A stretch of 64,000 nucleotides of DNA from assembly GCF_900890425.1 (NCBI RefSeq), contig NZ_CAAHFG010000001.1, positions 2,108,001-2,172,000 on the forward strand. Reading direction: 5' to 3'. Numbering within the stretch: position 1 is the stretch's first letter; each line of letters begins with the position of its first letter. Source of the stretch: Pontiella desulfatans. GTDB taxonomy: Bacteria; Verrucomicrobiota; Kiritimatiellia; Kiritimatiellales; Pontiellaceae. The translations under genes were made by a program, and so were the position numbers. The notes under the pieces are model-generated. The model made no database searches. It saw only the letters and a program-made list of their open reading frames with translations, and was not told the DNA's origin. This document shows, piece after piece, positions 31,504 to 62,774 of the stretch.

Positions 31504-31510
31504 ACTCCAC

Positions 31511-36898: not shown

Positions 36899-38703
36899 TA
36901 TTTTATTTTCTCCATGTGCATACTGAACAGCTCCATTTTGGAAACGGATTTTTCATCGCCCGTTTCCAACAACTCAACCCTCAGAACCTGATCCCCAGCG
37001 TCTAAATGGATCGTTCCGAAATCATGATATTTTTGGCCGGCGCCAAGCATCACTTCGCATGTTTTTCCGCCAGCGGTTAAGCGAATCTTCGTGTTCGAGG
37101 GAACACCGAGTGCCCGCAAATTGACCGTATAGGTGCCCGCCTCCAAGACGCGTACCTTCATCTCCTGAACGGCACCGATCTCTCTGAAAAATGTGTTTGC
37201 CCAGGTCACTGAGTTTTCGCCTTTGAAGCGATAGGCGCACTCCATTTCCAGATAGGCGTTCGGGCCCACTTCCTGCACCGGATCGCTCCAGGCGTGTGGG
37301 TCGGCTTTGATCTCAGTGAACGCATCAAAATAAGCAGACTGCATAGCCGAAAATTTTTCCGGCATGGCTTTCTTGAGATCCTTCTTTTGCTCCGGATCTT
37401 TGGAAAGATCAAACAAGCCCCAATGGCCCTTCTCATTTACAACCACCCAGTCGCCCTGAACGAAGCAGGTTTCGCGGCCGTTCAGCGGCATCGAGTGTTC
37501 CGTAAACCGATAGTTCCAACCATCGGAAGCTTTATGCTGCTGCGGCTTGCCTGTTTCGCCGACAAAGAAACCCCGCCCCGGCCACTTGGTATTTCCGTTA
37601 ACCAGAGGCAAGAGGCTTTGGCCGTTAAGTTTCGGCGTGCCAGCCGGGCGCTTTCCATCAGCCAGTTCTACGAGCGTCGGATAGATATCCATCACCAGCG
37701 TCATCCCCTCCACCACCTTCGGCTCAAATTTAGCAGGGCAATATATGGAGAGCCGGTTGCGCACGGCGCATTCCCAGCCGGTCGCCTTTTTGCCGCGGAA
37801 GCCCGATGGGTTTCGTGCCGCCCATTCTTCATCGTTCAGATTATAGTAGTCTTTCGTCAGCGCAAAATATCCGTCCTCATTCTGTTTCAGAATGCGCGTC
37901 GTTGGCGTCGGGCCGTTGTCGCCGAAAAAGAGCACGATGGTATTTTCGGCCAATCCTGAATCTTCCAATGATTGGAGAACCCGCCCGACCTGGGTATCGA
38001 GCTGCTCCATCATGCCGAGAAACATGGCATAGTGCTCGCCGACCCCTTTTGCCATATATTTTTGCTGGAGTTCCGGTGGGCAGAGCCACGGCTCGTGCGG
38101 CGCGGCATACGGGATGTAGAGGAAGAACGGATTCTCCTTCTGCGCTTCAATAAAACGGATCGCCTTATCCGTAACGCGCTCCACCTGCCAGCCGTCTTCG
38201 CGCCCGTCATACGTTCCGTTGTGAAAAAACGGTGGATTAAAATGCTCGTAGCGCCCATAGCTTCGGACATCCTCGCGCACCACCGGCCAGGCTTCGTCAA
38301 AACCACGGCGCGAAGGAAGTTCTGCATCGCTCAGGCCGAGGTTCCACTTACCCATCATCCCGGTCACATAGCCCGCATCCTGCATCGCTTCAGACAAAAA
38401 ATATTCATCCAGATGCGGTGCCTCCGCTCCGAAACCGACGGCCGAGGTTCCTGTCCGCATAAAGTTCCGGCCGGTCATCAGCGCCGAACGCGTCGGTGCA
38501 CAGGCTGCCGCCGTGTAGAAGCGAGTAAACTGCACGCCGTCCTTCATCAGCCGATCCATCACCGGTGTCTCCAGCGGCGGCTGCCGGAATCCATAGTCAT
38601 CGAATCCCTGATCATCCGTCAGGATCAGCACAATGTTGGGTTTCGAAACCGCGAATCCATTGCAGCAAAGAGCCAGCAATCCAAACACAAGGAACCGCAA
38701 CAT
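36898..38703 (-). CDS. Type I sulfatase (CAPTR) with C-terminal beta domain
   Basis: 601 residues, secreted (signal ~1-19). Arylsulfatase fold with L-T-D-D-Q-G-F-D-D-Y, formylglycine motif C-A-P-T-R (Cys68), and F-F-G-D-N-G-P at the second metal site. The last ~125 residues beyond the sulfatase domain form a beta-sandwich that resembles a carbohydrate-binding module (T-Y-T-V-N-L-R-A-L-G ... V-L-R-V-E-L). The start follows the upstream stop by two bases within GGAGAGTAATTATG, so the Shine-Dalgarno overlaps the previous gene. Confidence 0.88.
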   Translation of the reverse strand: MLRFLVFGLLALCCNGFAVSKPNIVLILTDDQGFDDYGFRQPPLETPVMDRLMKDGVQFTRFYTAAACAPTRSALMTGRNFMRTGTSAVGFGAEAPHLDEYFLSEAMQDAGYVTGMMGKWNLGLSDAELPSRRGFDEAWPVVREDVRSYGRYEHFNPPFFHNGTYDGREDGWQVERVTDKAIRFIEAQKENPFFLYIPYAAPHEPWLCPPELQQKYMAKGVGEHYAMFLGMMEQLDTQVGRVLQSLEDSGLAENTIVLFFGDNGPTPTTRILKQNEDGYFALTKDYYNLNDEEWAARNPSGFRGKKATGWECAVRNRLSIYCPAKFEPKVVEGMTLVMDIYPTLVELADGKRPAGTPKLNGQSLLPLVNGNTKWPGRGFFVGETGKPQQHKASDGWNYRFTEHSMPLNGRETCFVQGDWVVVNEKGHWGLFDLSKDPEQKKDLKKAMPEKFSAMQSAYFDAFTEIKADPHAWSDPVQEVGPNAYLEMECAYRFKGENSVTWANTFFREIGAVQEMKVRVLEAGTYTVNLRALGVPSNTKIRLTAGGKTCEVMLGAGQKYHDFGTIHLDAGDQVLRVELLETGDEKSVSKMELFSMHMEKIK

Positions 38704-38705: not shown

Positions 38706-40202
38706 TTACTCTCCAAATTCCCCGAACGGACGGCCGATGTCCTGAACGTAGCCGGTCAGGTGCACCTGCATCTCTTTCATGACCTTCTGGTATTCAGGAT
38801 TTGCTGCAAGATTGCTCTTTTCGTTCGGATCCTTCCGCAGATCAAACAACTGATCGGGATCCGCAAAACCAAACCGTTTATACATCTGCCCATACGGCGT
38901 CTTGACCCACAGGCGGTCAAAGTTGCCCGCATCAATGTTTTCTGCCAGCGTGCCGCTTAGATTTGGACTCATGCCGCGCTTGAGCATCTGATCGTTGTAG
39001 CGAATGGCGATGTATTTGTGATCTTTGGTCACCACGGATTTCGCATAGCCCATCTCGGTGTAGATGGCCTCTTTGAGCACATCGGTTTTTCCGCTCCAGA
39101 CCGGCAAAATGCTCATCCCGTCGAGATGCAGCCCCTCAACCGGCTTCGCCTGAGCCACGTCCATGAAGGTGGCCGCCATATCCGTCACATCAATCAGCGT
39201 ATCATTCACCTGTCCCGCCTGAAGGCCGCCGTCCGGCCAGCGCACGATGAAGGGAATATTGTTGCCGCATTCATACGGCGTGGCTTTTCCGGTAGCCTGC
39301 TGATCCGCAAGGTAAATAACCAGCGTATTGTCAGCAACGCCCATTTCATCGAGTTTGTCGAGAATCACGCCGACTCCTTCATCCGTCCACATCATCATCT
39401 CCGCCACGACCCCTTTGTTTTTAGGTATGTCTGAGCGGGGGCCCATCACTCCGACGGCTTTATCGGTAATCCCTTCGGGAGTCACCGTAACATCGGCACT
39501 TTCGATCGGTTCGTGCGGGCCATGGGTCGGCGTGAAAGCCGTCCACAGGAAAAAGGGTTTATCGTCCGGTGCCTGATCGAGAAAGTCGAGCGCGCCTTTC
39601 ACCGTGTATTCCACATTGTGATGTTCCAAAGCCTTGGGATACTGATCCACCACATTTCCGGCCGTAATGCATTCCGCATAATCAAAGCCGTAGCCATGAA
39701 TCAGGTCGCGTTGAATCTCAACAGACTCCTGAAGCATCGCCTTGATCGCCGGGTCGTTCGGATCGGCATCATTCGGAATGTCATGCAGCGGGAGCAGTTC
39801 ATGAAAATCACTGTGCCACTTACCGGACGCACCGGTATAATACCCCGCCTTCTGTAGCGCCTGCACAATCGTGCGGTCGGTCTCGCAGAAGAAAGCGCCG
39901 TTTCGGATCGGCGGCTGATAATCATATTCCTTGAACAGCCGGTTTCGGCAGCGACTCGGGTAGGATCCGGTTAAACAGCTGTATCGCGTCGGAACGCAGA
40001 GCGCCGAGGTGGTATAAGCACGCGTGTGAAGCACCCCCTCTTTGGCCAGGCGATCAATATGAGGCGTCGCATACTTCGCTCCATATGCACCAATGCTGTT
40101 CATATTTTGATCATCACCAATCAGCACCAGAATATTCGGGCGCTCCGCCGCATGGGCCATCACAACAGTGCTCAAAACAATCAAAGTCAAAATTCTTTTC
40201 AT
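38706..40202 (-). CDS. Type I sulfatase (CVPTR), heparan-sulfatase-like
   Basis: 498 residues from the ATG at 40202, which has AGGGAG seven bases upstream and lies one base after the preceding stop. The 85 extra residues of the longest frame overlap that gene and are rejected. Signal peptide ~1-18, I-G-D-D-Q-N metal site, formylglycine motif C-V-P-T-R (Cys69) followed by Y-S-C-L-T-G-S-Y-P-S-R. It is the first of the four-sulfatase run and directly coupled to the Asp-box genes upstream. Confidence 0.9.
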   Translation of the reverse strand: MKRILTLIVLSTVVMAHAAERPNILVLIGDDQNMNSIGAYGAKYATPHIDRLAKEGVLHTRAYTTSALCVPTRYSCLTGSYPSRCRNRLFKEYDYQPPIRNGAFFCETDRTIVQALQKAGYYTGASGKWHSDFHELLPLHDIPNDADPNDPAIKAMLQESVEIQRDLIHGYGFDYAECITAGNVVDQYPKALEHHNVEYTVKGALDFLDQAPDDKPFFLWTAFTPTHGPHEPIESADVTVTPEGITDKAVGVMGPRSDIPKNKGVVAEMMMWTDEGVGVILDKLDEMGVADNTLVIYLADQQATGKATPYECGNNIPFIVRWPDGGLQAGQVNDTLIDVTDMAATFMDVAQAKPVEGLHLDGMSILPVWSGKTDVLKEAIYTEMGYAKSVVTKDHKYIAIRYNDQMLKRGMSPNLSGTLAENIDAGNFDRLWVKTPYGQMYKRFGFADPDQLFDLRKDPNEKSNLAANPEYQKVMKEMQVHLTGYVQDIGRPFGEFGE

Positions 40203-40203: not shown

Positions 40204-40581
40204 TCATTCTCCCTGTATCTGTAATCGTATAAATTCATGCATGCTTTCGTCAGTATCGACCCGGTTGGTAACCGACTCGAACGCGTCATCAACCGCACCC
40301 GCACCCACCTCAACAACGCCATTGGTTTTCCAACCATTGGAAACCAGGTTGGTAGTCGTTTCGACCCAATACACCAGCGTGTCGTCATCCGTGCGGCGGC
40401 GGTAGACATATTTCCAGCCATCGACATTTCCAAGGCTTGGAAGAATCCCATCATCATTCGCGTTGGTCGGATTCCCGCCGAGCGCGTATTCCGCCAGGTT
40501 ATCGATTAAATCATCATCCGGATTCGCATCCATCGCAGCATCCACGCCAGTCAGTCCATATCCGGCAATCCATGTGCCGAA
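40204..40581 (-). other. Shared C-terminal module (Asp-box protein 1)
   Basis: About 125 residues: Y-G-L-T-G, D-D-D-L-I-D-N-L-A-E-Y-A-L-G-G-N-P-T-N, Y-V-Y-R-R-R, Y-W-V-E-T, N-L-V-S and a final F-I-R-L. Equivalent tails end the proteins at 44346, 50155, 54873, 58737 and, more divergently, 13418 and 6307. Confidence 0.7.
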
Positions 40582-43500
40582 CAAGGACTGGCCGGCCTGA
40601 AGGCAAACGGATTCCACAAGCAGATCCACGGCGTTTGCATCCGAAACAGTCGTTGAATTGATGCCGGGGCGAAGCGCATTGCTGAAAAAGGCGGAAGACG
40701 ACACAAACGCATGTGAATAGGTATCCACCGGGGCGGTCTTCAGCGGATCATCTGCCCGGTTATAGATAGTGGCTGTGGCCGTCCAGTTGGATGCAGTTGC
40801 GCCTTTAGCCATAGCCAGCTCCATCGTAATCCAGTCCGAAACCGAGCCCGGCCCGTTGGTGGTACCAATGTCTGAAGCGGCAAACGTGTTTCCGCTCTTG
40901 AACGAACTCCCGCCGGAATCCTCAAACAGCCCGAGCCGGTAGGTGCCATCCGCCCGACGTTTGAAGCTGAGCGATATGACCGAGCCGTCCGATGCGGCGA
41001 ACTCAACGCGGAACAGGTTCTTTTCGGCCACCGACGCAGCCGTCTCAGTAAACCGGAAGGTCGCACCCACCTTGAGGTCATCACCCGAAACAGGTGTGTA
41101 GTATGCCTTCTGCCAACTATTGGCATCCACAGCGACCGACCCTGTTCCATTTGTATTCACGGTAAAGGTGCCGGCATCGCCCGTCCAACCGCCCTGCCCG
41201 ACCAGCTCGCCGGAGGCATACCCTTCATCCGCCGTAAACTCAATGACTGTGCGCTCGATTTCATCGTGGGTGTAGATATACATGCCGTCGGCGCAGGCCG
41301 TGAAGAAACGGCCTTCGGTGTCCACCAGCATCGAATTGATCATCGTGACGGCCTCCGGCGCGTCCGGCTGCGTTGGGCCGTGCAGTTTGGCCCAGGTGAT
41401 GCCGCCGTCCACCGAACGGTAGAACGGCTCCATCAGCAGCCCGCCGGGAACCGGATGGTTGAGGTTCTCGCCTTCAGCCCATCGGTCGAGCTGATGGTGG
41501 TTGTGGCTCTTAGACGCATAAACAACATGTTCATATCCGGGGCGCGGATCGAACTCCACAAACCCCATCCACGGCACCGGCTCAAGCGCGCTGAAATAGA
41601 GGTTCGGTTCCAGGCCGGTGTCGTTGAGTTCCCAATCATTGAAAACTTCGGAGTATTCATAGATGCCGCTGCGGCCGGCCATCAGGATGCGCAGGTTGCC
41701 CGCGCTGGTCGCCGGATCGATGGCCAGCAGTTTTTGCGGGGGTAGGCTGTACGTTCTTCTCATGCCGGACACATGCCAGAATTTTCCCGAAAGCCCCGGC
41801 ACGGCCTCTTTCGGCGGCTCGGGAAGAGGCGTCCAGTTTGCTCCGCCGTCGACCGACACATACATGCCTAGGCTGGCCGCATCCACGCCCACCTCAATGT
41901 CGTCAACGCCGATGATCAGGTCGGGATTTGAGGATGACATCGTGACGATGTATTTGTTCATGTCCGTCCAGCTGCTTCCGCCGCTGTCGCTCCGCAGCCG
42001 CCCGGCATAAACACGGTTGGTGTTCACCGACGACCAGAAAACCAGACAGTTGATATACAGCGTATCGGGTTGCTTGATACCGGTATCAATCCAGTTAACC
42101 CCTGCATCGTACGATTCAAGGATGTTGCCGACTTCCGAGTAGGAGCCGATCATGTGGTCGGTGTTGTTGGGATCGTAAGCCATGCCGCTCATGTTGCGCG
42201 AGTCGCCCCACGAGACTCCGGGCAGCGGATTGGCAGCATCGCCCAGGTCATCAAAAAGCTGGTTGTTATGATGCGAGATGCCCTTCCACATCAAACCGCC
42301 GTTTGTAGAAACCACCACACCGTATTCCTTGGCACCAATGCTCCAGTGATCCGGATTGCCTGGCGAAACGGCAATCTGCGTCATCGCCTTGCAGGGCCCC
42401 CCGTTGGCATAGGTGGCAAAATTCGCACCGAAGTCCGAACTCTTCATCAGGCCGCCGAGGACCCACTTGGTGCACACAATCACCTCATTGGATTTTCCCG
42501 GCACCCACGCAAAGTTTTTCGAGGCCCATGATCGAAGATCATCCTCGCGGAGGCCGAGCCCGTAGGTATCATGATCCGAGGGCGTCCACCCCATCAGCGA
42601 TGGACAATAGCCATCGACCGAGCGGTCGGTACCCAGCCACGTCGCGCCGCCATCCAGCGAATAGCGCACCGCATCCAGCATCCTTCCTCCGCAGAGCAGC
42701 ACCACATGATCTGCATCCGCCGGATTGACATGCACGCTGGCAAAGGTATCGCTATTTTCCGTACCCAGCACGGCCGTAGATAAGGTCAGGGTTTCGCCCC
42801 AATCGGAAAACTCCTGCAACTCGCGTCCGCCCTGCGGCCAGCGTGCCGGAAAGGCCCGGCGGATCACCCAGCCCTTCGATGGATCAGACGGATCGATTTC
42901 CACATCCACAAAGTCGGAATACCCCGCATGCAACCGGGTGGTTGAGCTGACCGCGCCATTTGCTTCAATCTCTATCCGCCACAGCTCCCCCTGCGAAATC
43001 GCAAAATTGGCTCTACTGTCCGCAAAATATAGACCGCGCGACTGGTGCACCGTCATGCCCAGCGCGTCGTAGATTCGGATATCATCCAACGAGCCCGTAA
43101 AATTTCTGATCCCCGATGCCACTCCGGCCACATAAACCTGACCTGCACCGGCATGCCCGAAATCATCCACACCGGCATCAACCGTGGCCTCTTCCTCGCC
43201 ATCGACAATAAGGTGCATCATTCCGGCATTCCAGGAACCGACCACATGGTGCCACTCGCCGTCCCCGACCGCCGTTAAGGATGAAAGCTCGTGAAGTACA
43301 CCATCGCCTGCACGAACCGTCCATTTAACCTGCCCGCCAACCATGGAGAATTCAAAATAGTCATTCGAACCGGCAGACACCATGACCTGATCAGCACTGT
43401 TGGTGGTTTTGACCCAACAGGAAACCGTCAATTTTTCCTGAACGTTGGTGTAGACCATTCCGGAGGCCGTCAAACGATTGGCAACGGTTCCGTTAAACTC

Positions 43501-44349
43501 CGCCGCGTGGGATCCATCGGCACACGATTCATTCCAGCCGGAAACGGTACCGACTAAATCATAGGCTTTATTGCCGCCGACCAGCTTCTCATCCAGTCTC
43601 CAGTTTTCGGAATAATTGGTGTATTCAAAATTATAGGCGGGCACATTCTGGCCGGCAATGTGGCGCGGCATACGGCGCGGATTCAGCAAAGCATAGATGA
43701 CCGTGTTCGTACCGCCCACCGTCGCAGCCGAGAAATGCTTAATCGACCGATCCGCCAGCTCAGGCGCCAACAGCGACCACGTTGCCCCTCCGTCGGTCGA
43801 CCGCTGTAGTCCATCCGTGGTGGTTCCCAGAAAAATGTGGTTGGAACGAGTGGGCGTTGGATCTTCCAGAATGCGGTTTTTTCCGGTCTTGTTTTCGATC
43901 AACTCGTAGGAGCCGGACGGCAGCTGATAAATGTGTTCCCAGGTCTCGCCCAGATCCGGCGAACGCCACAGCCCGGCAGGCGTGTAGCCGGCGGGCAGAC
44001 TTTTCCATGGACGCGCCGCAATCAGCACATAGATGGTCTCCGGGTCAACCCGCGAAAACTTAACCGCCCGTGCCTTGGCCTCATACGTGCCGAGATAGGG
44101 ATGGTGTAGCGGCAGGAAGTCGCGACCGTTCGAGGTCATCACCATCGCCCACTCGTTATCGAGAAAAATCTGGCGGTCGGTATCAAATGGAGACACGGCA
44201 ATATCAAGCCCCTGCTGGACATGATCCCAGCCCGCTCCCGCCGGATGGCCGTTTTCAAAATGCCCCGGCCCCGGGAACGTGTTGCGCTGCCACTGGCCTG
44301 CCAGCACCGCTCCGGATACAAGCAACAGAATGGCTATGATTCGTTTCAT
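40204..44349 (-). CDS. Giant secreted Asp-box/LamG protein with EGY module
   Basis: 1381 residues. Signal peptide ~1-18, then a large beta-propeller of the BNR/sortilin/GH74 type shown by repeated Asp boxes (S-P-D-L-G-E-T-W ~130, S-T-D-G-G-A-T-W ~184, later S-L-D-G-G-A-T-W, S-V-D-G-G-A-N-W, S-V-D-G-G-I-T-W). A LamG domain (~245-430) is inserted in the propeller. An EGY module spans ~1034-1250 and a shared C-terminal 'EYALGG ... FIRL' module ~1257-1381. No sialidase Arg triad is evident, so a binding or GH74-like role is possible rather than a proven enzyme. It overlaps the stop of its paralogue upstream by ATGA. Confidence 0.75.
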   Translation of the reverse strand: MKRIIAILLLVSGAVLAGQWQRNTFPGPGHFENGHPAGAGWDHVQQGLDIAVSPFDTDRQIFLDNEWAMVMTSNGRDFLPLHHPYLGTYEAKARAVKFSRVDPETIYVLIAARPWKSLPAGYTPAGLWRSPDLGETWEHIYQLPSGSYELIENKTGKNRILEDPTPTRSNHIFLGTTTDGLQRSTDGGATWSLLAPELADRSIKHFSAATVGGTNTVIYALLNPRRMPRHIAGQNVPAYNFEYTNYSENWRLDEKLVGGNKAYDLVGTVSGWNESCADGSHAAEFNGTVANRLTASGMVYTNVQEKLTVSCWVKTTNSADQVMVSAGSNDYFEFSMVGGQVKWTVRAGDGVLHELSSLTAVGDGEWHHVVGSWNAGMMHLIVDGEEEATVDAGVDDFGHAGAGQVYVAGVASGIRNFTGSLDDIRIYDALGMTVHQSRGLYFADSRANFAISQGELWRIEIEANGAVSSTTRLHAGYSDFVDVEIDPSDPSKGWVIRRAFPARWPQGGRELQEFSDWGETLTLSTAVLGTENSDTFASVHVNPADADHVVLLCGGRMLDAVRYSLDGGATWLGTDRSVDGYCPSLMGWTPSDHDTYGLGLREDDLRSWASKNFAWVPGKSNEVIVCTKWVLGGLMKSSDFGANFATYANGGPCKAMTQIAVSPGNPDHWSIGAKEYGVVVSTNGGLMWKGISHHNNQLFDDLGDAANPLPGVSWGDSRNMSGMAYDPNNTDHMIGSYSEVGNILESYDAGVNWIDTGIKQPDTLYINCLVFWSSVNTNRVYAGRLRSDSGGSSWTDMNKYIVTMSSSNPDLIIGVDDIEVGVDAASLGMYVSVDGGANWTPLPEPPKEAVPGLSGKFWHVSGMRRTYSLPPQKLLAIDPATSAGNLRILMAGRSGIYEYSEVFNDWELNDTGLEPNLYFSALEPVPWMGFVEFDPRPGYEHVVYASKSHNHHQLDRWAEGENLNHPVPGGLLMEPFYRSVDGGITWAKLHGPTQPDAPEAVTMINSMLVDTEGRFFTACADGMYIYTHDEIERTVIEFTADEGYASGELVGQGGWTGDAGTFTVNTNGTGSVAVDANSWQKAYYTPVSGDDLKVGATFRFTETAASVAEKNLFRVEFAASDGSVISLSFKRRADGTYRLGLFEDSGGSSFKSGNTFAASDIGTTNGPGSVSDWITMELAMAKGATASNWTATATIYNRADDPLKTAPVDTYSHAFVSSSAFFSNALRPGINSTTVSDANAVDLLVESVCLQAGQSLFGTWIAGYGLTGVDAAMDANPDDDLIDNLAEYALGGNPTNANDDGILPSLGNVDGWKYVYRRRTDDDTLVYWVETTTNLVSNGWKTNGVVEVGAGAVDDAFESVTNRVDTDESMHEFIRLQIQGE
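40600..41250 (-). repeat. EGY module in Asp-box protein 1
   Basis: One of seven ~220-residue modules in this cluster. Marks: E-F-T-A-D-E-G-Y, W-T-G-D-A-G, F-R-F-T-E-T, L-S-F-K-R-R and D-S-G-G-S-S-F. Confidence 0.75.
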
Positions 44350-47300
44350 TCGCCAAAGATCCTCAATCGAATAAATTTCTGATCACTGTCCGCGGCGCCC
44401 ACCTCGTTGGTGACCGCTTCAAACTCGGCATCAATCCATCCTGTATCGATCTCGACGATTCCATTGGTGGTCCAGATCCCGGAAACCAGATTGGATGAGG
44501 TTTCAACCCAATATTCCAACCCGGCGACTTCGGGATCGAGGCGGCGTCGGTAGACATAGGTTTCTCCAAGGATTGGAAGAATACCTTCATCCCCGGCATT
44601 GGTGGGAATACCACCTAGCGCATACTCGGTCAGGTTGTCGAGCAGGTCAAAGTCCGGGTCGGCCGTATACCCGGCATCCGCACCCGACAATCCATACCCG
44701 GCAATCCAGCTCATAAACGCAGTAGCGCCGGACTCGAAATAAACCGACTCCACCACCACGTCTGAAATATTAGCCGCAAGCGCTGCCGCAGAATTGAGCG
44801 TTGGCCTGAGCAGGCTTTCGTAGAAGTCCGTCGATGAAACAAAATCGACCGTGAAGGATTCCAACGGAGCGCTCAATCTGCCGGGATCATCCGTCAGGTT
44901 GTATAACACGGCCTTCGCCATCCAGTTGTTCTCCGTTGCGCCCTTGGTGAGCGACAGCTCCAGATACAGCGGATCGGATGCAGCGCCTGCCCCGTTCGTT
45001 GTGCCGATATCTTCGGGAAGCAGATCGGTTCCGTTGAAGAAGGAACTGCTGCCTGAATTCTCAAAGAAGCCCAGCTCATATTTCCCGGAATTGAGGCGCT
45101 TGAAACTGAGCGATGCCGCTTCGTTGCCGAAGCCGCCGAATTCCAGGCGGAACATATTCTGGCTGCCGGAAGACGCGGCTGTTTCCGAAAAACGGAACTC
45201 GGTGCCCAACGTATACGAAGACCCGGAAGCCCCGGCCAGCGCAGGACTGTGGTTCACTTTCTTCCAGGCGCTGGAACCGACCGATACCGAACCGGGCAGG
45301 TTGGTATCCACCATAAATGAGCCGGCATCCCCCGCCCAACTCAGCTGCCCGACGAGATCGCCGTTCACATAGCCTTCGTCAGCAACAAATTCGATGGTGT
45401 CTCCGCCGAGCCCCGCATCTTCGTCGGAAAAGATATAGATGCCCTCGGTCGTAGCGGCGAACATGCGCCCGCGCATGTCAACGGTCATGGATTCAATCAT
45501 CGCCGCACTCGGTGCATCCGGACAACTGTGCAGTTTTTCCCAGGTGATTCCGCCGTCGAGCGAACGGTAGAACGGTTCAAAGTTTTCACCGCCGGGATAG
45601 GCGTGGTTCAGATTTTCCTCGCCCGCCCAGTCGCCGAGCGTTCGGTCATCGTTCTGCTTGGCGGCGTATACAATGTGCCCAGAGCCGGGGCGCGGATCGA
45701 AGACGACAAAACCCATCCAAGGCACCGGTTCGATGAGATTATAGTGCGTGCTGCTTTCCAAGCCGATATTCCGGAGCGTCCAATCATTGGAAGCTTGGTT
45801 GTATTCATAGATGCCGCTGCGACCGGCGAGCAGAATGCGCAGGTTTTCCGAAGCGGGATCGATGGCAACCAGCGCATCGGCCATGCAGTTCCACTTGCGC
45901 CCGCTGGCGGTTACCAGCCACTGCTTGCTCGTGCCGGGAACGGTTTCTCGCGGCGGGTCGGGCAGGCTCGTCCAGCTGTCACCACCGTCGGTCGATACAT
46001 GCATATTGAGGCTGGCGGCCGTCACATCCGTCTGCCAACTGTTGACGCCGACAAGTAGATCGGAGTCGGAATCGCAAACCGAAATGACCACTTTACCGAT
46101 ATCGCTCCAGGTCACGCCGGCATCATCACTTTTCATGCGACCGGCATAAACACGGTTTGGATCAGTACGGCTCCAGAAAACATCCACCCATAGATCCATC
46201 GGATTGCGGAAGCCGGTATCCGTCCAGGAAAGCCCCGCATCGGTAGAGCGCAGCAGATAACCTTTCTGCGACCACGCCGCGACCATGATGTCGGCATCAA
46301 CCGGATGGAACGCCACACCGCATCCGACGCGTGCCGCCGTCCACCAGGATCCGTTGGCCTGCGCCTGATTGGCCAGGCTTGCGAGCAGGTCGTCATTATG
46401 ATGGGTTTGGGCCGTCCAGCTCAGTCCGTTATTGGTGGTGACAGAAAAACCATGTTCATAAAGTCCGATGGACCAGCGGTCCGGATCGCCGTGCGCTACA
46501 TTGAACTGGCCGAGATCCTTGATCGGCCCGCCGGTCGCTGCGGTCTCCCAGGTGGCACCGTAGTCGGAACTTTCGAACACCCCGCCGTGCGTGGCGCAAA
46601 TCCACAGCAACTTGTTTGGCGATCCGGGAACAAAGGCAAACGGCGAACCGGAAAAGACGGCGTTGATATCACTTTCAAGTCCCGCGCCGTAGGTTTGATA
46701 GTCCATGGGCGTCCAGCTGTCGATGGACGGAAGATGATCGCCGACCTTGCGATCGGTATCCAGCCATGTGGTGCCGCCATCGATGGAGCAGCGCAGGCCA
46801 TAGCGCATCGGGCCGCCGCAGGCAAGGAACACCTGGTTGGTGTCGCCGGGGTTCACCAGAATTTCATCGAAGGTCTGATATTTTTCGTTGCGCACGGCGG
46901 TGGAGAGCGTGAGCGTTTCGCCGAAGTTGGAAAAGCGATGAAGTTCGCGTCCGCCATAGGGATAGCCGAATGGATTGCTCTTGCGGATGACCCAGCCGGA
47001 TGAGGGATCGAGCGGATTGACTTCCACACTATGGAAATCGGCCAGCGGGGCGTGAAGGCGAACGGCTTCAGCAATGTCTCCGGCAGCATCCACGCGGATG
47101 CGCCAGAGCTGTCCCTGCGGCATCGGGTTTTTGTGATCTTCTTCCAGGTAGATTCCACGGGCGTATGTGAGGGTCAGCGCGCGCGAATTGTAGATGCGCA
47201 GGTCGTCGAGCGTGCCAACGAAATTTTCTCCAATGACGCCGTTAACAGCGTTCCCGCTACCGAGCAGCGAGCCTCCGGCATCCCCGGCGGCGACTTTTTC

Positions 47301-49166
47301 GCCATCCACATACAGCTCCACATCTCCTCCGTCAAACACACCGGCCACGTGGTGCCAGTCGCCGTCGTCGATGCGCGGGCCGACCACCTCGGTCACAGTT
47401 CCACCGGAATCGCGAACGGCCCAGACCACCCCGCCCGGCGCATCGCCGGCGGATGTTTCAAACCGCGATATGATCCGGTTATAGAGATGTGTATTGGACT
47501 GCTGATCGGCCTGATTGATTACTCCGTACAATGGATTGTTGAAATAGGCGGCTGATGTATCAAATGTGGAAGGAGAATGACGCTTCACCTCAACCCCGTC
47601 GGTCAGGTTACTGAGAATGCAAACGGCCGACCATGAAGCCGCGTCTTCCCCGCGGGTCAGAGTCAGCTGAAGCCAGAGATCATCCGACTCTGTGTCCGCT
47701 GCACTGTCAAACCCAAGCGCATCTTCATCAAACTCGCCGGAGTCTCCGCCGGTGCTTGAGCTGCCGGTGTTCTCCCAGAAGTTCAGTTTGTATTTCTCAT
47801 TATCCCAGGCGCGCCGCTTGAACTGCACGGCCAACCGGCCTGCACCCGTTACCGGCGCTTCAAAAATTTCCAATGCCAGGAAATTTTTATCGCCGCTCAA
47901 TGCCGTTGTATCGCGGCTGAATGAAAACTGAACTCCAATCGAATAAATATCGTTGGAACCCATCCCGGTTCCATGGATGACTTTTTTCCAGGAGGTGGAG
48001 TCATCCAGCGTCACCATCCCCGGGCTGTTGGTATCGACCAGGAAGCCTGCGTCGCCGCTCCAGCTGCTATGGTTTCTAAGCTCCCCGGGAACATAACCGG
48101 TCGTGAATTCCTCTAACGCAACGTTGGTCACGGATCCGCCCTGACGGGTTCCCAGTTCGAAGTATTCGTTTGGATCGTATGACACAATGACCTGATCGGC
48201 ATTGTTGGTGGTCTGCACCCAGGCCGACACCGACAGATCCGAATATGTTCCGGCATACGTAAGATTGATAGAGTCCAAAAAGGTTGTGCCATCGAACAGT
48301 GCGGCATGACGACCTTCTATGACAGAATCGGTCCAACCGGACACCGATCCGGCGAGGTCGTATCCATTATCGGATGCATCTTCGAGGTTTTCGTTAAACT
48401 GCCATTGCGCGGCAACATCGCCGGGAGCCCAGGCATCGAGCGGAATGGTTTCGCCGGCCGTGTGGCGCGGCATGTTTTTTTCAGCAATGGCATACAAAAT
48501 GGTTTCGTTGGCGTCATTGGTTACAGCGGTAACCATGCGCATGCGGCGGCGGAACAATCCGTCCGCAACCGACGACCAGCTCGCACCGTTATCGGTGGAG
48601 CGCAGAAGCCCCTCGGAGGTGGATGCAAACCAGAGATGATTGGAGCGCGCGGGGCACGGGTCTTCCAGAATCATTGTCCGCCCGTTGTTGTCCGCACTGT
48701 CGTGTTCGTAGCCACCGGCGGGCGGCTGGTAAAGATGCTGCCAGGTTTCGCCGCGGTCGGTGCTGCGCCACAAGCCGGCGGGCGAGTTGACGGGATCGAT
48801 GCTGTCCCAATATTCGTGAGCAATGCGCAGGTAGAAGGTGTCGGCATCATAGCGCGAAAATTCGACGCTCTGAGCGGAACACTCGGGCGCACCGATGTGC
48901 TGCATGCGCAGCGGCTTATAGTTGATGCCGTCTTCGGTGTAGACCGCGCCCCACTCGTTTTCAAGCACGGCGCGAAAATTCGGGTCCAGCGGAGACACCG
49001 AGATATCCATGGTGCTTTCCATGTGGCTCCAGCCCGCGCCGGGCGCAAATCCATGGTCCACATGCCCCTGCCCCGGAAACGTGTTGCGCTGCCAGTCGCT
49101 GGCCGATGCTCCACCCGAAGTGAGCACCAGCGCCAACCCCAGCTGCTGTATCCATCCTGTTTTCAT
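44346..49166 (-). CDS. Giant secreted Asp-box/LamG protein with two EGY modules
   Basis: 1606 residues, paralogue of the next gene and fused to it by an ATGA overlap. Signal peptide ~1-22, Asp boxes (S-T-D-R-G-E-T-W ~135, S-T-D-N-G-A-S-W ~190 and later copies), a LamG domain starting near 245, a propeller continuation, a terminal EGY module (~1257-1477) and the shared C-terminal module. A further EGY module (~343-577) is inserted in the middle of the LamG domain: the LamG strand ends at Y-F-E-L-G-T-R-Q and resumes at G-G-V-V-W-A-V-R-D. The ~225-residue length difference from the paralogue is accounted for by this insert. AAGGTG precedes the start, and a strong terminator hairpin lies just upstream. 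Confidence 0.78.
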   Translation of the reverse strand: MKTGWIQQLGLALVLTSGGASASDWQRNTFPGQGHVDHGFAPGAGWSHMESTMDISVSPLDPNFRAVLENEWGAVYTEDGINYKPLRMQHIGAPECSAQSVEFSRYDADTFYLRIAHEYWDSIDPVNSPAGLWRSTDRGETWQHLYQPPAGGYEHDSADNNGRTMILEDPCPARSNHLWFASTSEGLLRSTDNGASWSSVADGLFRRRMRMVTAVTNDANETILYAIAEKNMPRHTAGETIPLDAWAPGDVAAQWQFNENLEDASDNGYDLAGSVSGWTDSVIEGRHAALFDGTTFLDSINLTYAGTYSDLSVSAWVQTTNNADQVIVSYDPNEYFELGTRQGGSVTNVALEEFTTGYVPGELRNHSSWSGDAGFLVDTNSPGMVTLDDSTSWKKVIHGTGMGSNDIYSIGVQFSFSRDTTALSGDKNFLALEIFEAPVTGAGRLAVQFKRRAWDNEKYKLNFWENTGSSSTGGDSGEFDEDALGFDSAADTESDDLWLQLTLTRGEDAASWSAVCILSNLTDGVEVKRHSPSTFDTSAAYFNNPLYGVINQADQQSNTHLYNRIISRFETSAGDAPGGVVWAVRDSGGTVTEVVGPRIDDGDWHHVAGVFDGGDVELYVDGEKVAAGDAGGSLLGSGNAVNGVIGENFVGTLDDLRIYNSRALTLTYARGIYLEEDHKNPMPQGQLWRIRVDAAGDIAEAVRLHAPLADFHSVEVNPLDPSSGWVIRKSNPFGYPYGGRELHRFSNFGETLTLSTAVRNEKYQTFDEILVNPGDTNQVFLACGGPMRYGLRCSIDGGTTWLDTDRKVGDHLPSIDSWTPMDYQTYGAGLESDINAVFSGSPFAFVPGSPNKLLWICATHGGVFESSDYGATWETAATGGPIKDLGQFNVAHGDPDRWSIGLYEHGFSVTTNNGLSWTAQTHHNDDLLASLANQAQANGSWWTAARVGCGVAFHPVDADIMVAAWSQKGYLLRSTDAGLSWTDTGFRNPMDLWVDVFWSRTDPNRVYAGRMKSDDAGVTWSDIGKVVISVCDSDSDLLVGVNSWQTDVTAASLNMHVSTDGGDSWTSLPDPPRETVPGTSKQWLVTASGRKWNCMADALVAIDPASENLRILLAGRSGIYEYNQASNDWTLRNIGLESSTHYNLIEPVPWMGFVVFDPRPGSGHIVYAAKQNDDRTLGDWAGEENLNHAYPGGENFEPFYRSLDGGITWEKLHSCPDAPSAAMIESMTVDMRGRMFAATTEGIYIFSDEDAGLGGDTIEFVADEGYVNGDLVGQLSWAGDAGSFMVDTNLPGSVSVGSSAWKKVNHSPALAGASGSSYTLGTEFRFSETAASSGSQNMFRLEFGGFGNEAASLSFKRLNSGKYELGFFENSGSSSFFNGTDLLPEDIGTTNGAGAASDPLYLELSLTKGATENNWMAKAVLYNLTDDPGRLSAPLESFTVDFVSSTDFYESLLRPTLNSAAALAANISDVVVESVYFESGATAFMSWIAGYGLSGADAGYTADPDFDLLDNLTEYALGGIPTNAGDEGILPILGETYVYRRRLDPEVAGLEYWVETSSNLVSGIWTTNGIVEIDTGWIDAEFEAVTNEVGAADSDQKFIRLRIFGE
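44736..45398 (-). repeat. EGY module in Asp-box protein 2, C-terminal copy
   Basis: Marks: I-E-F-V-A-D-E-G-Y, W-A-G-D-A-G-S-F, E-F-R-F-S-E-T, L-S-F-K-R and E-N-S-G-S-S-S-F. It corresponds in position to the copy in the downstream paralogue. Confidence 0.75.
47436..48140 (-). repeat. EGY module nested inside a LamG domain
   Basis: Marks: E-E-F-T-T-G-Y, W-S-G-D-A-G-F, F-S-F-S-R-D, A-V-Q-F-K-R-R, S-D-D-L-W-L-Q-L-T-L-T-R-G and S-N-L-T-D-G. The downstream paralogue has no module at this place. Boundaries are good to about 10 residues. Confidence 0.75.
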
Positions 49167-49180
49167 GCTTTCACCTTACC

Positions 49181-49208
49181 AAAAACCCCGCGGGGAAACG
49201 GGGTTTTT
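49181..49208 (-). terminator. Strong intrinsic terminator between PEP-CTERM and Asp-box genes
   Basis: AAAAACCCCG (49181-49190) pairs perfectly with CGGGGTTTTT (49199-49208) around an eight-base loop. It can act in both directions, but it lies 23 bases after the stop of the PEP-CTERM gene and 15 bases before the Asp-box gene start. It would separate or attenuate transcription between them. Confidence 0.8.
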
Positions 49209-49230
49209 CGTAAATTTATCCGTTTCAGGA

Positions 49231-50100
49231 TTACATCATGAATCTGCGGCGGATAAACAAAACAGCACCGCCAAAACCTGCAATCAGTCCCAGCGTTGCG
49301 GGTTCGGGAATGGCCGTAACGGAAAACTGATCAACCACGCGGTTGGAAAAGTTCCCTTCCGAATCTTTGTTAGAAGAATTCATCAGTGCATACAGATCAT
49401 CTGTAAAATAGGCCGACGACGTATCAAATTCTCCCACAACTCCGGTTCCCATCTCAACAGAGGCCCCGGTGAGCATGTTGCTGAGCACACCGGATACCAT
49501 CCAGGACGAGGCGTCTGCACCGCGGTAGAGCGTCATGCCCAGCCAAAGATCGTCCGACGTTGTGTCAGCGGCATCGGCGAAGCCCCAAACCGTTTCGTCC
49601 GACCACCCGGCGTTGCCCGAGGTATTTACGGATCCCGTGTTTTCCCAGAATGAAAGCCGGTATTTCCCGCTGTTCGCGTTGGGCTGGCGCTCCAGCTGCA
49701 TCGCCAGCCGGTTTCCGCCGGACGCCACTTCGGTCAGCTCGACGGCAATCACGTTTGCCTTGGTGGTAAGCTGGGCGGAGTCCCGGTTGAAGGAAAACTT
49801 CATCCCGACGGTATATTCCGTCATAGAGGAGGAAAGAGCCTCCTGGTAGATGGCCTTGTTATAGCCTGCGTCACCATCCAGATGAACTGCTCCGGCGGAA
49901 CTGTCCACGCGAAAGCGGCCGGTGCCACTACCTGCGGTTTCATCCCAGCTTGAGCCGGTCGTTGGCGTTTGGGCATCCAGCCGGCTTGCCCAGCTGGAAC
50001 CGTCACCGGAATAGCCTTCCGCCGCCGTGAAGTTTACGACGGATGCATGCGCCCCGCCGGCCAATAAAACCAAACAAGCAATACCGATCATCTTTTTCAT
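49231..50100 (-). CDS. PEP-CTERM protein made of one EGY module
   Basis: 289 residues: signal peptide (~1-19), one complete EGY module (~20-262), then a PEP-CTERM tail (I-P-E-P-A-T, hydrophobic helix, R-R-R). It is the minimal form of the architecture and shows that the module is a stand-alone folding unit presented at the surface through exosortase processing. A consensus Shine-Dalgarno (AAAAGGAGAT) and flanking hairpins on both sides suggest high, independent expression. No catalytic residues are visible. Confidence 0.85.
   Translation of the reverse strand: MKKMIGIACLVLLAGGAHASVVNFTAAEGYSGDGSSWASRLDAQTPTTGSSWDETAGSGTGRFRVDSSAGAVHLDGDAGYNKAIYQEALSSSMTEYTVGMKFSFNRDSAQLTTKANVIAVELTEVASGGNRLAMQLERQPNANSGKYRLSFWENTGSVNTSGNAGWSDETVWGFADAADTTSDDLWLGMTLYRGADASSWMVSGVLSNMLTGASVEMGTGVVGEFDTSSAYFTDDLYALMNSSNKDSEGNFSNRVVDQFSVTAIPEPATLGLIAGFGGAVLFIRRRFMM
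49315..50043 (-). repeat. EGY module in the PEP-CTERM protein
   Basis: Marks: N-F-T-A-A-E-G-Y, K-F-S-F-N-R-D, A-M-Q-L-E-R-Q, E-N-T-G-S, S-D-D-L-W-L-G-M-T-L-Y-R-G, L-S-N-M-L-T-G, F-D-T-S-S-A-Y-F and N-R-V-V-D-Q-F. Confidence 0.78.
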
Positions 50101-50119
50101 GAGTATCTCCTTTTAAGAA

Positions 50120-50142
50120 CGGAAGACCCGTCGGGTCTTCCG
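50120..50142 (-). terminator. Stem-loop between the three-module gene and the PEP-CTERM gene
   Basis: CGGAAGACCCG-T-CGGGTCTTCCG is a perfect 11-base inverted repeat located 12 bases after the stop of the gene ending at 50155. Only a short T run follows on the minus strand, so it may be a leaky terminator or an mRNA stabiliser. Confidence 0.6.
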
Positions 50143-50154
50143 GTTTCCATATCG

Positions 50155-52740
50155 TTAAAGTTCGTTGATCCGCAGGCGGATGAACTCTTGGCTTCCACTC
50201 ATTGGAATGGAATTGGTAACCATGTCGAATTCACTGTCGAGCGCACCGCTCGTTACCGTGATGCCGGTATTGGTCCAGCCTCCGAGAACCAGATTTCCCA
50301 TATCGTTGACTTCCACGATGTATTCAATACCGCTTTCCGGATCCGCCAGCATCGCGTGTATGAACTCGAAGTCTCCACCGTTGATGGCTGTAAACTTGAT
50401 GCCCGTGTCGTCCGGATCTTTCGGGTCACCGCCCAGGCCATACTCACCAAGGTTGTTCAGGCCGTCTTCATCGAAATCTTCATCCATGCCGCCGACGCCG
50501 TTGGCAGCGGCCCATTCCGCATAGGCCGACTCGAAGTTACGGATGGCTAAATAGAAGCTTTCCACCTGCCGGTTACTGGTGAGCGTTTGCGATTCCAACC
50601 AGCCACTATTGATGTTGCCATACAGAGCCGGCGCGGAATTCCATGACTCACTCACAATGATTTCTCCTGCAGGAACCGAAAGGCGATCCACTTCCACGCC
50701 GGTGGTCAGATTGCTCAGCACCACGAGCGCCGACCAGTTGTTGGTTTCTGTTCCGGGATAGACGATCAATGACATCTTGAGTTCGTCCGAAAGATCATCC
50801 CCCGGCCCGAATCCGAGATCAGCGCCCGTAAGGTTTGCACTGTTCGTGAACGAGAAACCGCCCGAGTTTTCATTAAACCCGAGCTGGAATATGGGCGCAT
50901 TGGTTGTTGCGCGGTTCAAGACAACGCGCATGTTGTCATCACCGGTGGATATTCCGTCCTTCAGCGCAAAGATCATCATGCTGTTCTGGTTCGGCGTTGC
51001 ATTGGTTGCGCAGTTAAAGCGGAAGGTTCCCCCCACTTCGAGCTGGCTGTTGGTTGTGGACAGCGGATAGGTGTAGGTGGCCTGCCGGAAGTTGTCGGAG
51101 GCACTGGACGACAAAACCAGATAGTTGGTCGTTCCATCCACCAGGTTTTCTCCGGCATGCCCGCCCCAGTAACCCAACTGGCCGACCACATCGCCCGGCA
51201 CATAGCCCTGCTCTGCCGAGAATTCGACCAACATCGGTTGCTCCGCCACTGCCGGAGAAGTACCGGCAGTGGCGACAAAACGATCCACTACGCGGTTGGA
51301 GGTAAAAGACACGCTTTCATAGTTCAGGCATCCAAACATGGCGTAGAGGCTGCCATCGTTAAACAGGTCGGAAGACGTGGTAAATGAAACCGGGTGCGTT
51401 ACGACCTCCGTCCCTTCGGTGAGGTTGCTGATGACGCCCACCCCTGTCCAGAGGAGCTCGCTTGAGCCTCGCGTCATTGTAAAGCCGAGCCACAGATCGT
51501 CCGAAACGCTTACCGTTTCATTAGTATCGAAGCCGAGATCGCCTTCCTGAAAGATGCCGGACTTCGGAAATGAGCTGCCGCCACCACTCTGGTCGACCAT
51601 GGCCAACCGGTACGAATCATTATTAAAGCGTTGCAGCTGCATAGACGTGCGACCGGAATCATTAGCCGTCGTGGTGGTTTCCTTGAATTCGACACTGATG
51701 ACATCTTGCTGGCTAATCGTATTGGTGGCCATCCGGGTGAAAGCGAATTCAATACCAACGCTATAGACCTCGTTGGAAGTCAGCGGGATCTGATTGATCG
51801 CCTTCTTGAACTGTTCACTACTGGACAGCAAAACGATGCCTGTATTGGTGGGGTTCACCTGGAAATCGGCACCGTGACCGCCCCAATCGGCATTGGCACC
51901 CAGATTGCCCGCAACATACCCCTCGGCCAAAGTAAAGTGGGTATCAATGGAAACCGGCGGGGGCGGAGGCACAGCACCGATATCAAACATAAACTGCTCA
52001 ACCACCCGATTGGATGTTTGTGAATCGGATTCAAAATTCACGTTGCCAAGCACGGCATAGAGGTCATCGGTAAAAAAGGCCGAAGAGGTGTCGAACTCTC
52101 CCGTTTCATAGGACATCAGCTGAACCGTGTCGGTCAGGTTGCTCAGGATATAGGTCGCATTCCAATTCGTCTCGGTGGCACCGCGGACCAGCAGCATTTC
52201 CATCCAGAGATCATCCGATACGTTGTCGGAAGCATCATCGAATCCAAGAACGCTCTCATCAAACGTTCCCGAGTTTGGAAAATAATTAGCCGCACCGGAA
52301 TTAATCACTCCCCCCAAACGAAATTTTTTACTGTCAGGATTGGTCGATGCATTATACTTCATGCGTTGCAGTTGCAAAGCGATCCGCTTGCCCCCCGTTC
52401 CCGCAATCTCTGTAAACTCGGCGGACGCAACACTGGGATTATTGAACGTGACGCTGTTCGTGCTGCGGTTGAATGAAAACTTCATCCCAACACGGTAAGA
52501 CTCGTTCGATGCCAGACCGGTTTTGTAGAATGCCTTCTTAAAGTTTTGCGAGCCATCCAGTGCAACCGTACCTGACCCGGTCGGATCCACGGTGAAGGCG
52601 GTGTGCCCTCCCCAGTCTGAATTCGCTGTCAACTGTCCGGCAGAATAGCCTTCCACCTCTGTGAAATTAATCGTGGTGGCCATCGTCGTAACCGCGGCCA
52701 GCATCATGCCGGCTGATAACAATGCTACTCGTTCCTTCAT
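50155..52740 (-). CDS. Secreted protein with three tandem EGY modules
   Basis: 861 residues from the ATG at 52740, preceded by GGAGG; the 23 residues of the longer frame are not used. Signal peptide ~1-22. EGY modules at ~23-252, ~268-491 and ~504-732 are joined by short proline/alanine linkers (one is P-P-P-P-P). They are followed by the shared C-terminal module (D-G-L-N-N-L-G-E-Y-G-L-G-G ... F-I-R-L). No catalytic motif, no LamG and no Asp boxes. Likely a multivalent binding protein. It is the first gene of the 52.7-kb operon, divergent from the GntR-type regulator. Confidence 0.8.
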   Translation of the reverse strand: MKERVALLSAGMMLAAVTTMATTINFTEVEGYSAGQLTANSDWGGHTAFTVDPTGSGTVALDGSQNFKKAFYKTGLASNESYRVGMKFSFNRSTNSVTFNNPSVASAEFTEIAGTGGKRIALQLQRMKYNASTNPDSKKFRLGGVINSGAANYFPNSGTFDESVLGFDDASDNVSDDLWMEMLLVRGATETNWNATYILSNLTDTVQLMSYETGEFDTSSAFFTDDLYAVLGNVNFESDSQTSNRVVEQFMFDIGAVPPPPPVSIDTHFTLAEGYVAGNLGANADWGGHGADFQVNPTNTGIVLLSSSEQFKKAINQIPLTSNEVYSVGIEFAFTRMATNTISQQDVISVEFKETTTTANDSGRTSMQLQRFNNDSYRLAMVDQSGGGSSFPKSGIFQEGDLGFDTNETVSVSDDLWLGFTMTRGSSELLWTGVGVISNLTEGTEVVTHPVSFTTSSDLFNDGSLYAMFGCLNYESVSFTSNRVVDRFVATAGTSPAVAEQPMLVEFSAEQGYVPGDVVGQLGYWGGHAGENLVDGTTNYLVLSSSASDNFRQATYTYPLSTTNSQLEVGGTFRFNCATNATPNQNSMMIFALKDGISTGDDNMRVVLNRATTNAPIFQLGFNENSGGFSFTNSANLTGADLGFGPGDDLSDELKMSLIVYPGTETNNWSALVVLSNLTTGVEVDRLSVPAGEIIVSESWNSAPALYGNINSGWLESQTLTSNRQVESFYLAIRNFESAYAEWAAANGVGGMDEDFDEDGLNNLGEYGLGGDPKDPDDTGIKFTAINGGDFEFIHAMLADPESGIEYIVEVNDMGNLVLGGWTNTGITVTSGALDSEFDMVTNSIPMSGSQEFIRLRINEL
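50545..51231 (-). repeat. EGY module 3 of the three-module protein
   Basis: Marks: V-E-F-S-A-E-Q-G-Y, Y-W-G-G-H-A-G, F-R-F-N, N-E-N-S-G-G-F-S-F, L-S-N-L-T-T-G and S-N-R-Q-V-E-S-F. It is the most divergent of the three. Confidence 0.72.
51268..51939 (-). repeat. EGY module 2 of the three-module protein
   Basis: Marks: T-L-A-E-G-Y, D-W-G-G-H-G-A-D-F, E-F-A-F-T-R, S-M-Q-L-Q-R, S-D-D-L-W-L-G-F-T-M-T-R-G, S-N-L-T-E-G and S-N-R-V-V-D-R-F. Confidence 0.75.
51985..52674 (-). repeat. EGY module 1 of the three-module protein
   Basis: Marks: N-F-T-E-V-E-G-Y, D-W-G-G-H-T-A-F, K-F-S-F-N-R, A-L-Q-L-Q-R, S-D-D-L-W-M-E-M, L-S-N-L-T-D-T, F-D-T-S-S-A-F-F and S-N-R-V-V-E-Q-F. Confidence 0.75.
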
Positions 52741-53006
52741 TCCTCTACCTCCTGTTGGGATTGCTGTTGCTTCAAGATATGGTCGCATATAAACCATGAA
52801 AAAAACCAACCGTCAACCTTATTGTAATGTTTTTTAGTGTTATATGTTTATCATTTGCAACGCACTAGATCGCAGTCCTATGCTTAATATGCCTTTCTAA
52901 TGCACATGCCAAAATCCAAGGAAAACAACAGTTAGACGATCTAAATAAAGTTTATAATTGTAAATCACACACCGGAATGCTTTAAATGTTCAGCATTTGA
53001 GGAAAC
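52741..53006. promoter_or_regulatory. Divergent regulatory region upstream of regulator and operon
   Basis: A 266-base AT-rich region with several candidate operator elements. 52836-52858 resembles 29633-29654 upstream of the GH5-like/symporter operon. TTTATAATTGTAAA (52951-52964) is nearly palindromic. AATGCT ... AGCATT (52976-52981 with 52992-52997) is an inverted repeat just before the regulator, and TTCAGCATTT (52989-52998) recurs at 29665-29674. GntR-type regulators usually bind such repeats beside their own gene. The regulator start has AGGA upstream. Confidence 0.5.
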
Positions 53007-54098
53007 ATGGCCAAACCTAACACAAAAGAAGACATTGCCTACCAGTATGTTCGGGAACTGATTAATGGCGACGAGCTGCAACCCGGCGACCTGCTACCCA
53101 CCGAAACCCAGATCAGCGAAACATTGGGCATTAACCGCATGACCATCGCCAAAGCCTTGGCTTCGCTCAAAAACGAAGGCTACGTGGAGCGTCGCGCCGG
53201 GCGTGGAACCACCCTCATCCGCAAACCGGCCTCCAGTTCATCCAAAATAGTTCTCGTCATTTCCCCGTGGCCTTCGTGGGACATCAAGGATGAGTGGTAT
53301 TTCTCCCGAATGCTCTATGCCATGCAAACCACCGCCATCCGAAACGGCATGGCCACCATCAACCTCGCTGTACACGCCGAACAGATTGAAGACGACGACT
53401 TCGCTAAAATCCGCGACATCTATCACGCCGTAGAGTGCCAGGGAGCCATCGTGGTCGATCCCTACCTCGCCACCCACGGCAAACTGCAGGAATTCCTGGC
53501 GGGTCTGCATTGCCCGACCGTATGGGCCGGATCCTCGCAGAAAGATGCGCCTAACGCATACTGCGTCGATATTGACGATCATCAGGCTGCCTTTGATCTA
53601 ACTGAAAAACTGATCAATTCCGGCGCTCAACAAATCGCCTACATCAGCTTTCAGTTCAATACCGAAGCCCGCCGCCGCCGGCTCGACGGCTATAAAGCCG
53701 CTCTGAAAAAAAACGATATCCCGTTCGATGAACGGCTGGTGATCTGCAACAGCATGCCGGTCTGCCTCAAAGATGCTGGCCGCGAATGCGCCGGCATCTA
53801 CACCGCCCGCAACCTCGCCGCCGATGCGGTGGTACTCAGCGATTTGCTCATGCTCGACGGCATCATCAGCTTCTGCGACCAACTCCAGACCCCACCGCTA
53901 CTCAAACTAAAGCAACTCCCCTGCGCCACGTTCGATTACGAGAAGGATCAAGGACACGCCAACATACAATTCTCTGCCACCCAACCCATCGAAGATATTG
54001 GTGCCAGCACGGTTCAGATGCTTATCGATATCTGCGAGGGGAAACCGAACATTCCAAAAATCCAAATCCTCAACCACGAAATCCACACCCTCAACTGA
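53007..54098 (+). CDS. GntR-HTH / LacI-effector transcription regulator (AraR-like)
   Basis: 363 residues. Residues ~1-75 form a GntR-type winged helix-turn-helix (Y-V-R-E-L-I ... G-D-L-L-P-T-E-T-Q-I-S-E-T-L-G-I-N-R-M-T-I, then Y-V-E-R-R-A-G-R-G-T). Residues ~80-363 form a periplasmic-binding-protein-like effector domain as in LacI/GalR and AraR regulators (N-S-G-A-Q-Q-I-A-Y-I-S, A-D-A-V-V-L-S-D). It should bind DNA and release it on binding a sugar. It is divergent from the operon starting at 52740, its most likely target; its own gene is probably autoregulated. Confidence 0.88.
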   Translation: MAKPNTKEDIAYQYVRELINGDELQPGDLLPTETQISETLGINRMTIAKALASLKNEGYVERRAGRGTTLIRKPASSSSKIVLVISPWPSWDIKDEWYFSRMLYAMQTTAIRNGMATINLAVHAEQIEDDDFAKIRDIYHAVECQGAIVVDPYLATHGKLQEFLAGLHCPTVWAGSSQKDAPNAYCVDIDDHQAAFDLTEKLINSGAQQIAYISFQFNTEARRRRLDGYKAALKKNDIPFDERLVICNSMPVCLKDAGRECAGIYTARNLAADAVVLSDLLMLDGIISFCDQLQTPPLLKLKQLPCATFDYEKDQGHANIQFSATQPIEDIGASTVQMLIDICEGKPNIPKIQILNHEIHTLN

Positions 54099-62750: not shown

Positions 62751-62774
62751 CGGCACACCTCTTTCAATATTAAA

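Follow-up and report, generated by a model that had tools for sequence, protein, structure and literature searches.

Pontiella-type bacteria hold the largest sulfatase sets reported, with 521 sulfatases described for Pontiella desulfatans (PMC7356697), and strain F1 of this species has a genome of 8.66 Mbp (PMC10880615, PMC7356697). In the assembly analysed here, which comprises 8.66 Mb in 6 contigs, at least 124 sulfatases were scored from 555 first-look candidates. Extracellular capture of sulfated polysaccharides by bacteria of this type is poorly described. The window considered here, a 64,000-nucleotide stretch of the genome of P. desulfatans, a marine bacterium that breaks down seaweed polysaccharides, contains four adjacent genes that share seven copies of a module, designated EGY, which a sequence-only reading could place in no named family and took to be a possible concanavalin (ConA)-like glycan-binding domain of a sulfatase locus. 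What kind of domain is this, how did it come to be distributed over these genes, and what does it contribute to them?

The four EGY genes D, C, B and A and the sulfatase genes downstream of them lie on one strand, separated by gaps of less than 70 nt or overlapping (Table 1). Gene D is followed by gene C after 54 nt and gene C by gene B after 64 nt, and the start of gene A overlaps the stop of gene B by 4 nt. Because these genes are so tightly packed, we infer an operon in which D is the first gene and the EGY genes stand at the head. Further sulfatases, a LamG/Big_1 protein and an MFS sugar transporter are encoded beyond the two sulfatases adjoining gene A, and a regulator resembling the one that diverges from gene D adjoins the gene D counterpart in genome G217 (7.4 Mb). 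The open reading frame of gene D was called from a TTG start (50155-52809), but an ATG at 52740 is the more likely start, since AGGAGG lies upstream of it and it yields a signal-peptide-like N-terminus as in its relative. The tail of the gene C product, IPEPATLGLIAGFGGAVLFIRRRFMM, displays by inspection a PEP motif, a hydrophobic stretch and a basic cluster. It scores just below the cut-offs of both Pfam PEP-CTERM (19.1 bits against 20.7) and TIGR02595 (15.1 against 16), and the closely similar tail of a relative (L064) exceeds the TIGR02595 cut-off. An exosortase gene is present elsewhere in the genome (PF09721, E 2.1e-50, above cut-off). The EGY proteins are putatively exported, and some of them may be located at the surface.

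Table 1. Genes, EGY modules and LamG domains of the locus, in window positions
Feature	Positions	Strand	Description and evidence
Regulator	53007-54098	+	GntR-type with LacI-type sugar-binding domain; divergent from gene D
Gene D	50155-52740	-	N-terminus resembling a signal peptide, three EGY modules, EYxLGGDP-type tail at the C-terminus
EGY module D1	51976-52677	-	First of three in gene D; alignment, profile match, tree
EGY module D2	51262-51945	-	Alignment, tree; counterpart in MAG and G217 orthologues
EGY module D3	50539-51234	-	Alignment, tree; forms a separate clade with its counterparts in the MAG and G217
Gene C	49231-50100	-	N-terminus resembling a signal peptide, single EGY module, PEP-CTERM tail scoring just below cut-offs
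EGY module C	49309-50043	-	Stand-alone copy; alignment, predicted structure
Gene B	44346-49166	-	Asp-box propeller split by LamG, LamG split by EGY module B1; then B2 and tail
LamG (Laminin_G_3) of gene B	47145-48431	-	Split by EGY module B1
EGY module B1	47445-48125	-	Inserted in gene B LamG; alignment, Pfam, tree
EGY module B2	44727-45401	-	Close to gene B C-terminus; alignment, tree
Gene A	40204-44349	-	Asp-box propeller with intact LamG inside, one EGY module, tail
LamG of gene A	43030-43623	-	Uninterrupted
EGY module A	40591-41250	-	Close to gene A C-terminus; alignment, tree
Two sulfatase genes	38706-40202 and 36898-38703	-	Directly downstream of gene A

The seven modules are homologous. 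All 21 pairwise alignments between them score 14-74 standard deviations over shuffled sequence, 20 columns are invariant among the copies, and when a profile was run against the whole genome the seven were the best matches by a wide margin, with at least three weaker copies located elsewhere. These results bear out the initial proposal of seven homologous copies in four adjacent genes and the positions given for them. Two details of that proposal are amended: the module measures 220-245 amino acids rather than about 220, and the ordered marks by which it was recognised do recur but are degenerate, SDDLW being exact in four copies only and ENSGSS in one.

The absence of a named family for EGY was supported by searches of Pfam, NCBIfam and PDB sequences. 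A Pfam scan of 43 divergent EGY members gave no credible match, the best (E 0.0061) being that of a single member to an unrelated DUF, and none of the 43 matches the Pfam lectin families, including Lectin_legB. NCBIfam searches with EGY proteins returned matches to sorting tails and none to the module, and EGY profiles found no match among PDB sequences even at E 10. The Pfam and NCBIfam matches in these proteins fall only on neighbouring domains (LamG, BNR) and on the PEP-CTERM tail. Laminin_G_3 (PF13385, threshold 27.6 bits) belongs to the same ConA-like superfamily as EGY and occurs in the same proteins, the host LamG domains of genes A and B matching it, whereas module B1, which is inserted in such a domain, matches no family on its own and the other copies yield no useful score. 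Literature searches produced no description of the module, and plasmid records contained no match to it. The best reading is that EGY is an undescribed ConA-like family and a candidate carbohydrate-binding module (CBM).

The fold on which this reading draws was predicted for module C. An AlphaFold2 model built from eleven alignment rows reached a pLDDT of 85.4 and a pTM of 0.87; among the five models, two lie at pLDDT 84-85 and the remainder at 68-72. Foldseek placed GH43 enzymes at the top of its matches and legume lectins and further ConA-like proteins below them, with E values down to 4.5e-7. With VIA-align the model superposed from first to last residue (Z 15-16.4, rmsd 2.7-3.6 Å, approximately 180-195 residues) on a lectin-like alpha-amylase inhibitor, GS-I-B4, soybean agglutinin and the CBM2 module of a phage Dit protein, and a viral structure library returned generic ConA-like matches only. 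A two-sheet jelly-roll sandwich with legume-lectin topology over the whole length is thus a well-supported prediction, and the earlier description of EGY as concanavalin-like holds for the modelled fold. The proviso that structures might differ between copies was partly addressed by this one confident model and by a second, low-confidence model in which the strands of the module follow the same order.

A ConA-like fold does not by itself imply sugar binding, since the fold also has non-lectin roles. The legume lectins 1gnz, 2sba and 6xt6 resemble EGY in the predicted full-length sandwich (VIA Z 15-16, about 190 residues) but share only 10-16% identity with it and give no sequence-profile match, and, as judged from the conservation table only, the EGY strand before the short loop formed by residues 105-111 has no obvious conserved acid pair like the metal-site acids of these lectins. 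Chain B of 1dhk, the alpha-amylase inhibitor with the highest VIA score (Z 16.4, rmsd 2.7, 179 residues), is a plant defence protein, to which the bacterial context of EGY suggests no functional link. The CBM2 module of the Lactobacillus phage J-1 Dit (5ly8; Z 15.9) is a carbohydrate-binding accessory module in a non-enzyme, and no sequence relation to EGY was detected when profiles were compared with PDB sequences.

GH16 enzymes and PL7-type alginate lyases are also among the Foldseek matches, and EGY occurs alone in single-domain proteins, as might be expected if it were itself an unnamed GH16- or PL7-like family of ConA-like glycoside hydrolases or polysaccharide lyases. Conservation across 52 modules does not favour catalysis, however. 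The most conserved residues (module C numbering) are N189 (100%), W33 (98%), G154 (98%), W181 (96%), F5 (94%), S163 (90%), R119 (87%) and D164 (85%); there is no near-invariant acid pair, D164 being the sole acidic residue conserved above 80%. The presence of three copies in one protein and the attachment of the module to complete enzymes also suit an accessory role, and we consider a catalytic EGY highly improbable, the least probable of the readings weighed here. The strongly conserved residues could be purely structural.

The arrangement of the modules points to movement within the locus. The copies had been described as joined to PEP-CTERM, to Asp-box propellers or to one another, but the one at 47.4 kb (B1) is more than an appendage of a propeller, lying inside the LamG domain of its protein. 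Genes A and B are paralogues (49% identity over 1352 aligned residues, B1 left out), and their propeller accommodates LamG between its second and third Asp-box repeats. In gene A this LamG domain is continuous and scores 75.4 bits in Pfam. In gene B only the second part of the domain matches while the insert is present, at 56.9 bits, and removal of residues 345-576 (the EGY copy and linkers) raises the score to 74.6 bits, with profile positions 16-146 covered. LamG is unbroken in the G217 orthologue as well; the stretch examined in that genome holds one propeller gene and a two-module gene D. Gene B therefore appears to encode a propeller that holds a LamG domain that in turn holds an EGY module, and this nested insertion is the unusual part of the finding. 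The case for nesting is built on sequence alignment and Pfam scores because the model of the region is poor (pLDDT 50), its LamG part having been modelled without an alignment since MAFFT failed to align the LamG domains of A and B with the modules present. If the nesting is correct, it would provide a clean natural case of a ConA-like domain accepted in the loop of another.

In a tree of the 52 modules, B1 groups with C, D1 and D2 (98/91), and A groups with B2 (99/100). Because B1 falls with modules of neighbouring genes and not with B2, the tree indicates that EGY modules have moved between genes of this locus. In the simplest history an A-like gene was duplicated and a C/D-type module then entered the LamG domain of one copy, an event that was not recent, since the branch leading to B1 is long (0.64). 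The triple-module protein encoded on a MAG contig (L036) is the orthologue of gene D and its first module is C-like in the tree, which suggests that the modules of the operon have been reshuffled between genes. An imperfect 20-nt direct repeat (75%), in frame, flanks the LamG insertion (47386-47405 and 48121-48140); similar repeats are frequent by chance in that stretch, and no target-site duplication is claimed.

Such mobility might also be read as neutral, the copies having arisen incidentally as a repetitive operon recombined and EGY being a degenerate lectin-like filler that has kept its fold and lost its binding. Divergence of the modules to 20-30% identity, the scarcity of conserved polar residues and the lectin-like inhibitor as top VIA match would suit this account. 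Against it, the modules of many genomes are intact, have kept their reading frame and in most cases span the full length, and orthologues of D2 and D3 are recognisable from one genome to another, and we judge it very unlikely.

Modules related to EGY are also present elsewhere in the Verrucomicrobiota. Profile searches detected them in 9 of 195 genomes of the phylum and in 9 of 29 genomes of the family, and a broader profile at E 1e-6 detected them in 14 of 388 sampled phylum genomes, patchily and in five families; a search with a four-copy subset matched one MAG locus. The initial assignment of EGY to "this sulfatase locus" was hence too narrow. Proximity to sulfatases was dropped as evidence of function, because in a genome with about 500 sulfatases nearness to one is uninformative. 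The family has no sharp boundary, since further genomes give partial matches that span the first 40-50 EGY positions only, which suggests that the start of the module (F-x-x-x-E-G-Y-x-x-G-x-L-x-x-Q-x-x-W) occurs more widely than the full module.

Many of the relatives are single-module proteins of 250-300 amino acids, and Pfam assigns recognisable partners to others. EGY shares a polypeptide with lambda-carrageenase domains (PF25290/25291/25292) in L063 of genome G035, with GH16 and CBM96 in L081, with GH26 in the MAG protein L047, with a GH42-like domain in L050 and L062, and with a collagenase-type C-terminal domain in L055 and L069. It is fused to a sulfatase in four proteins from four genomes (L050, L066, L070 and L077), and two genomes encode a sensor histidine kinase that carries it (L071:2152-5049 and L079:10139-13252), the latter suggesting that the module may serve in glycan sensing. 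CBM96 (PF24517) lies beside EGY in L069 and L081; it and other CAZy CBMs resemble EGY in architectural role but belong to different sequence families, and the ligand of EGY is putative. In these relatives EGY occurs as a discrete module within carbohydrate-active enzymes, as the CAZy criterion for a CBM specifies, and its partners within the window are propellers of putative activity. On the MAG contig CAJYAJ010000002.1 (L047/L036, uncultured Verrucomicrobia), the GH26-EGY fusion follows the gene D orthologue where P. desulfatans has its propeller genes, and operons of this type thus differ between genomes in their enzyme partner.

Several of these proteins could be explained differently, with EGY a structural or adhesion domain (cell-cell or EPS) of PEP-CTERM surface proteins that enzymes carry for retention or multimerisation. 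Several genomes, including some from other families of the phylum, encode stand-alone EGY proteins that end in PEP-CTERM, the P. desulfatans genome has an exosortase, and modules are arranged in tandem in gene D and twice in one 1659-aa frame of G240. Yet EGY is also carried by secreted-type enzymes of differing substrate classes, beside CBM96 and Ig domains, and by sensor kinases, and because of this variety ligand recognition fits better than anchoring. We consider an adhesive role unlikely, though it deserves more weight than catalysis or loss of function.

The explanation we favour, with a probability of about 0.6, is that EGY constitutes an undescribed ConA-like beta-sandwich family of non-catalytic, exported CBMs and that the operon captures glycan for its sulfatases. 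Glycan binding is likely by analogy, mainly because the range of EGY partners is that of carbohydrate-binding modules. In the proposed scheme, the single-module, PEP-CTERM protein of gene C and the triple-module protein of gene D would provide surface-bound or secreted glycan capture, the modules of genes A and B would be appendages of Asp-box propeller proteins, and glycan held in this way, possibly a sulfated galactan or similar, would be presented to the sulfatases encoded downstream. EGY copies would have been duplicated and moved among the neighbouring genes, and one would have entered a loop of the ConA-like LamG domain of gene B. Several points weigh against this explanation: adhesion or oligomerisation would also fit the stand-alone PEP-CTERM proteins, non-lectin roles are known for the ConA-like fold, the strongly conserved residues may well be structural, and the highest VIA Z belongs to the lectin-like alpha-amylase inhibitor, in a comparison that has a confident model for one copy only. 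A more far-reaching version, in which EGY is a new CBM family with specificity for sulfated galactans of algae or bacteria, moved from gene to gene in Pontiella-type bacteria as a mobile cassette that can enter even a lectin-like domain and leave it intact, and serving both to target enzymes and, in histidine-kinase fusions, to sense that same glycan, is a tentative possibility that we rate as doubtful. If the favoured explanation is correct, EGY would mark glycan-degradation loci in Verrucomicrobiota and be a candidate new CBM family, for which the single-module protein of gene C is a tractable test subject.

Other features of the window were noted on its minus strand. Four large open reading frames in the sulfatase run (21451-23208, 24775-26484, 27884-29587 and 29698-31569) have no Pfam match at E 1e-5. 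A shared C-terminal tail of about 125 residues (40204-40590, 44346-44726, 50155-50538 and 54873-55270) ends genes A, B and D, the GHL15 gene and many of the EGY proteins of relatives. Its motif is W-x-x-x-Y-G-L-x-G ... D-x-L-x-N-L-x-E-Y-A-L-G-G-x-P-T-N ... V-E-x-x-x-x-L-V-x-x-x-W ... V-T-N ... F-I-R-L-x-I; Pfam gives no match in this region, which may represent a sorting or adaptor tail. Two adjacent large proteins, encoded at 54873-58727 and 58737-62843, both match PF14885 (Hypothetical glycosyl hydrolase family 15), and one of them bears this common tail.
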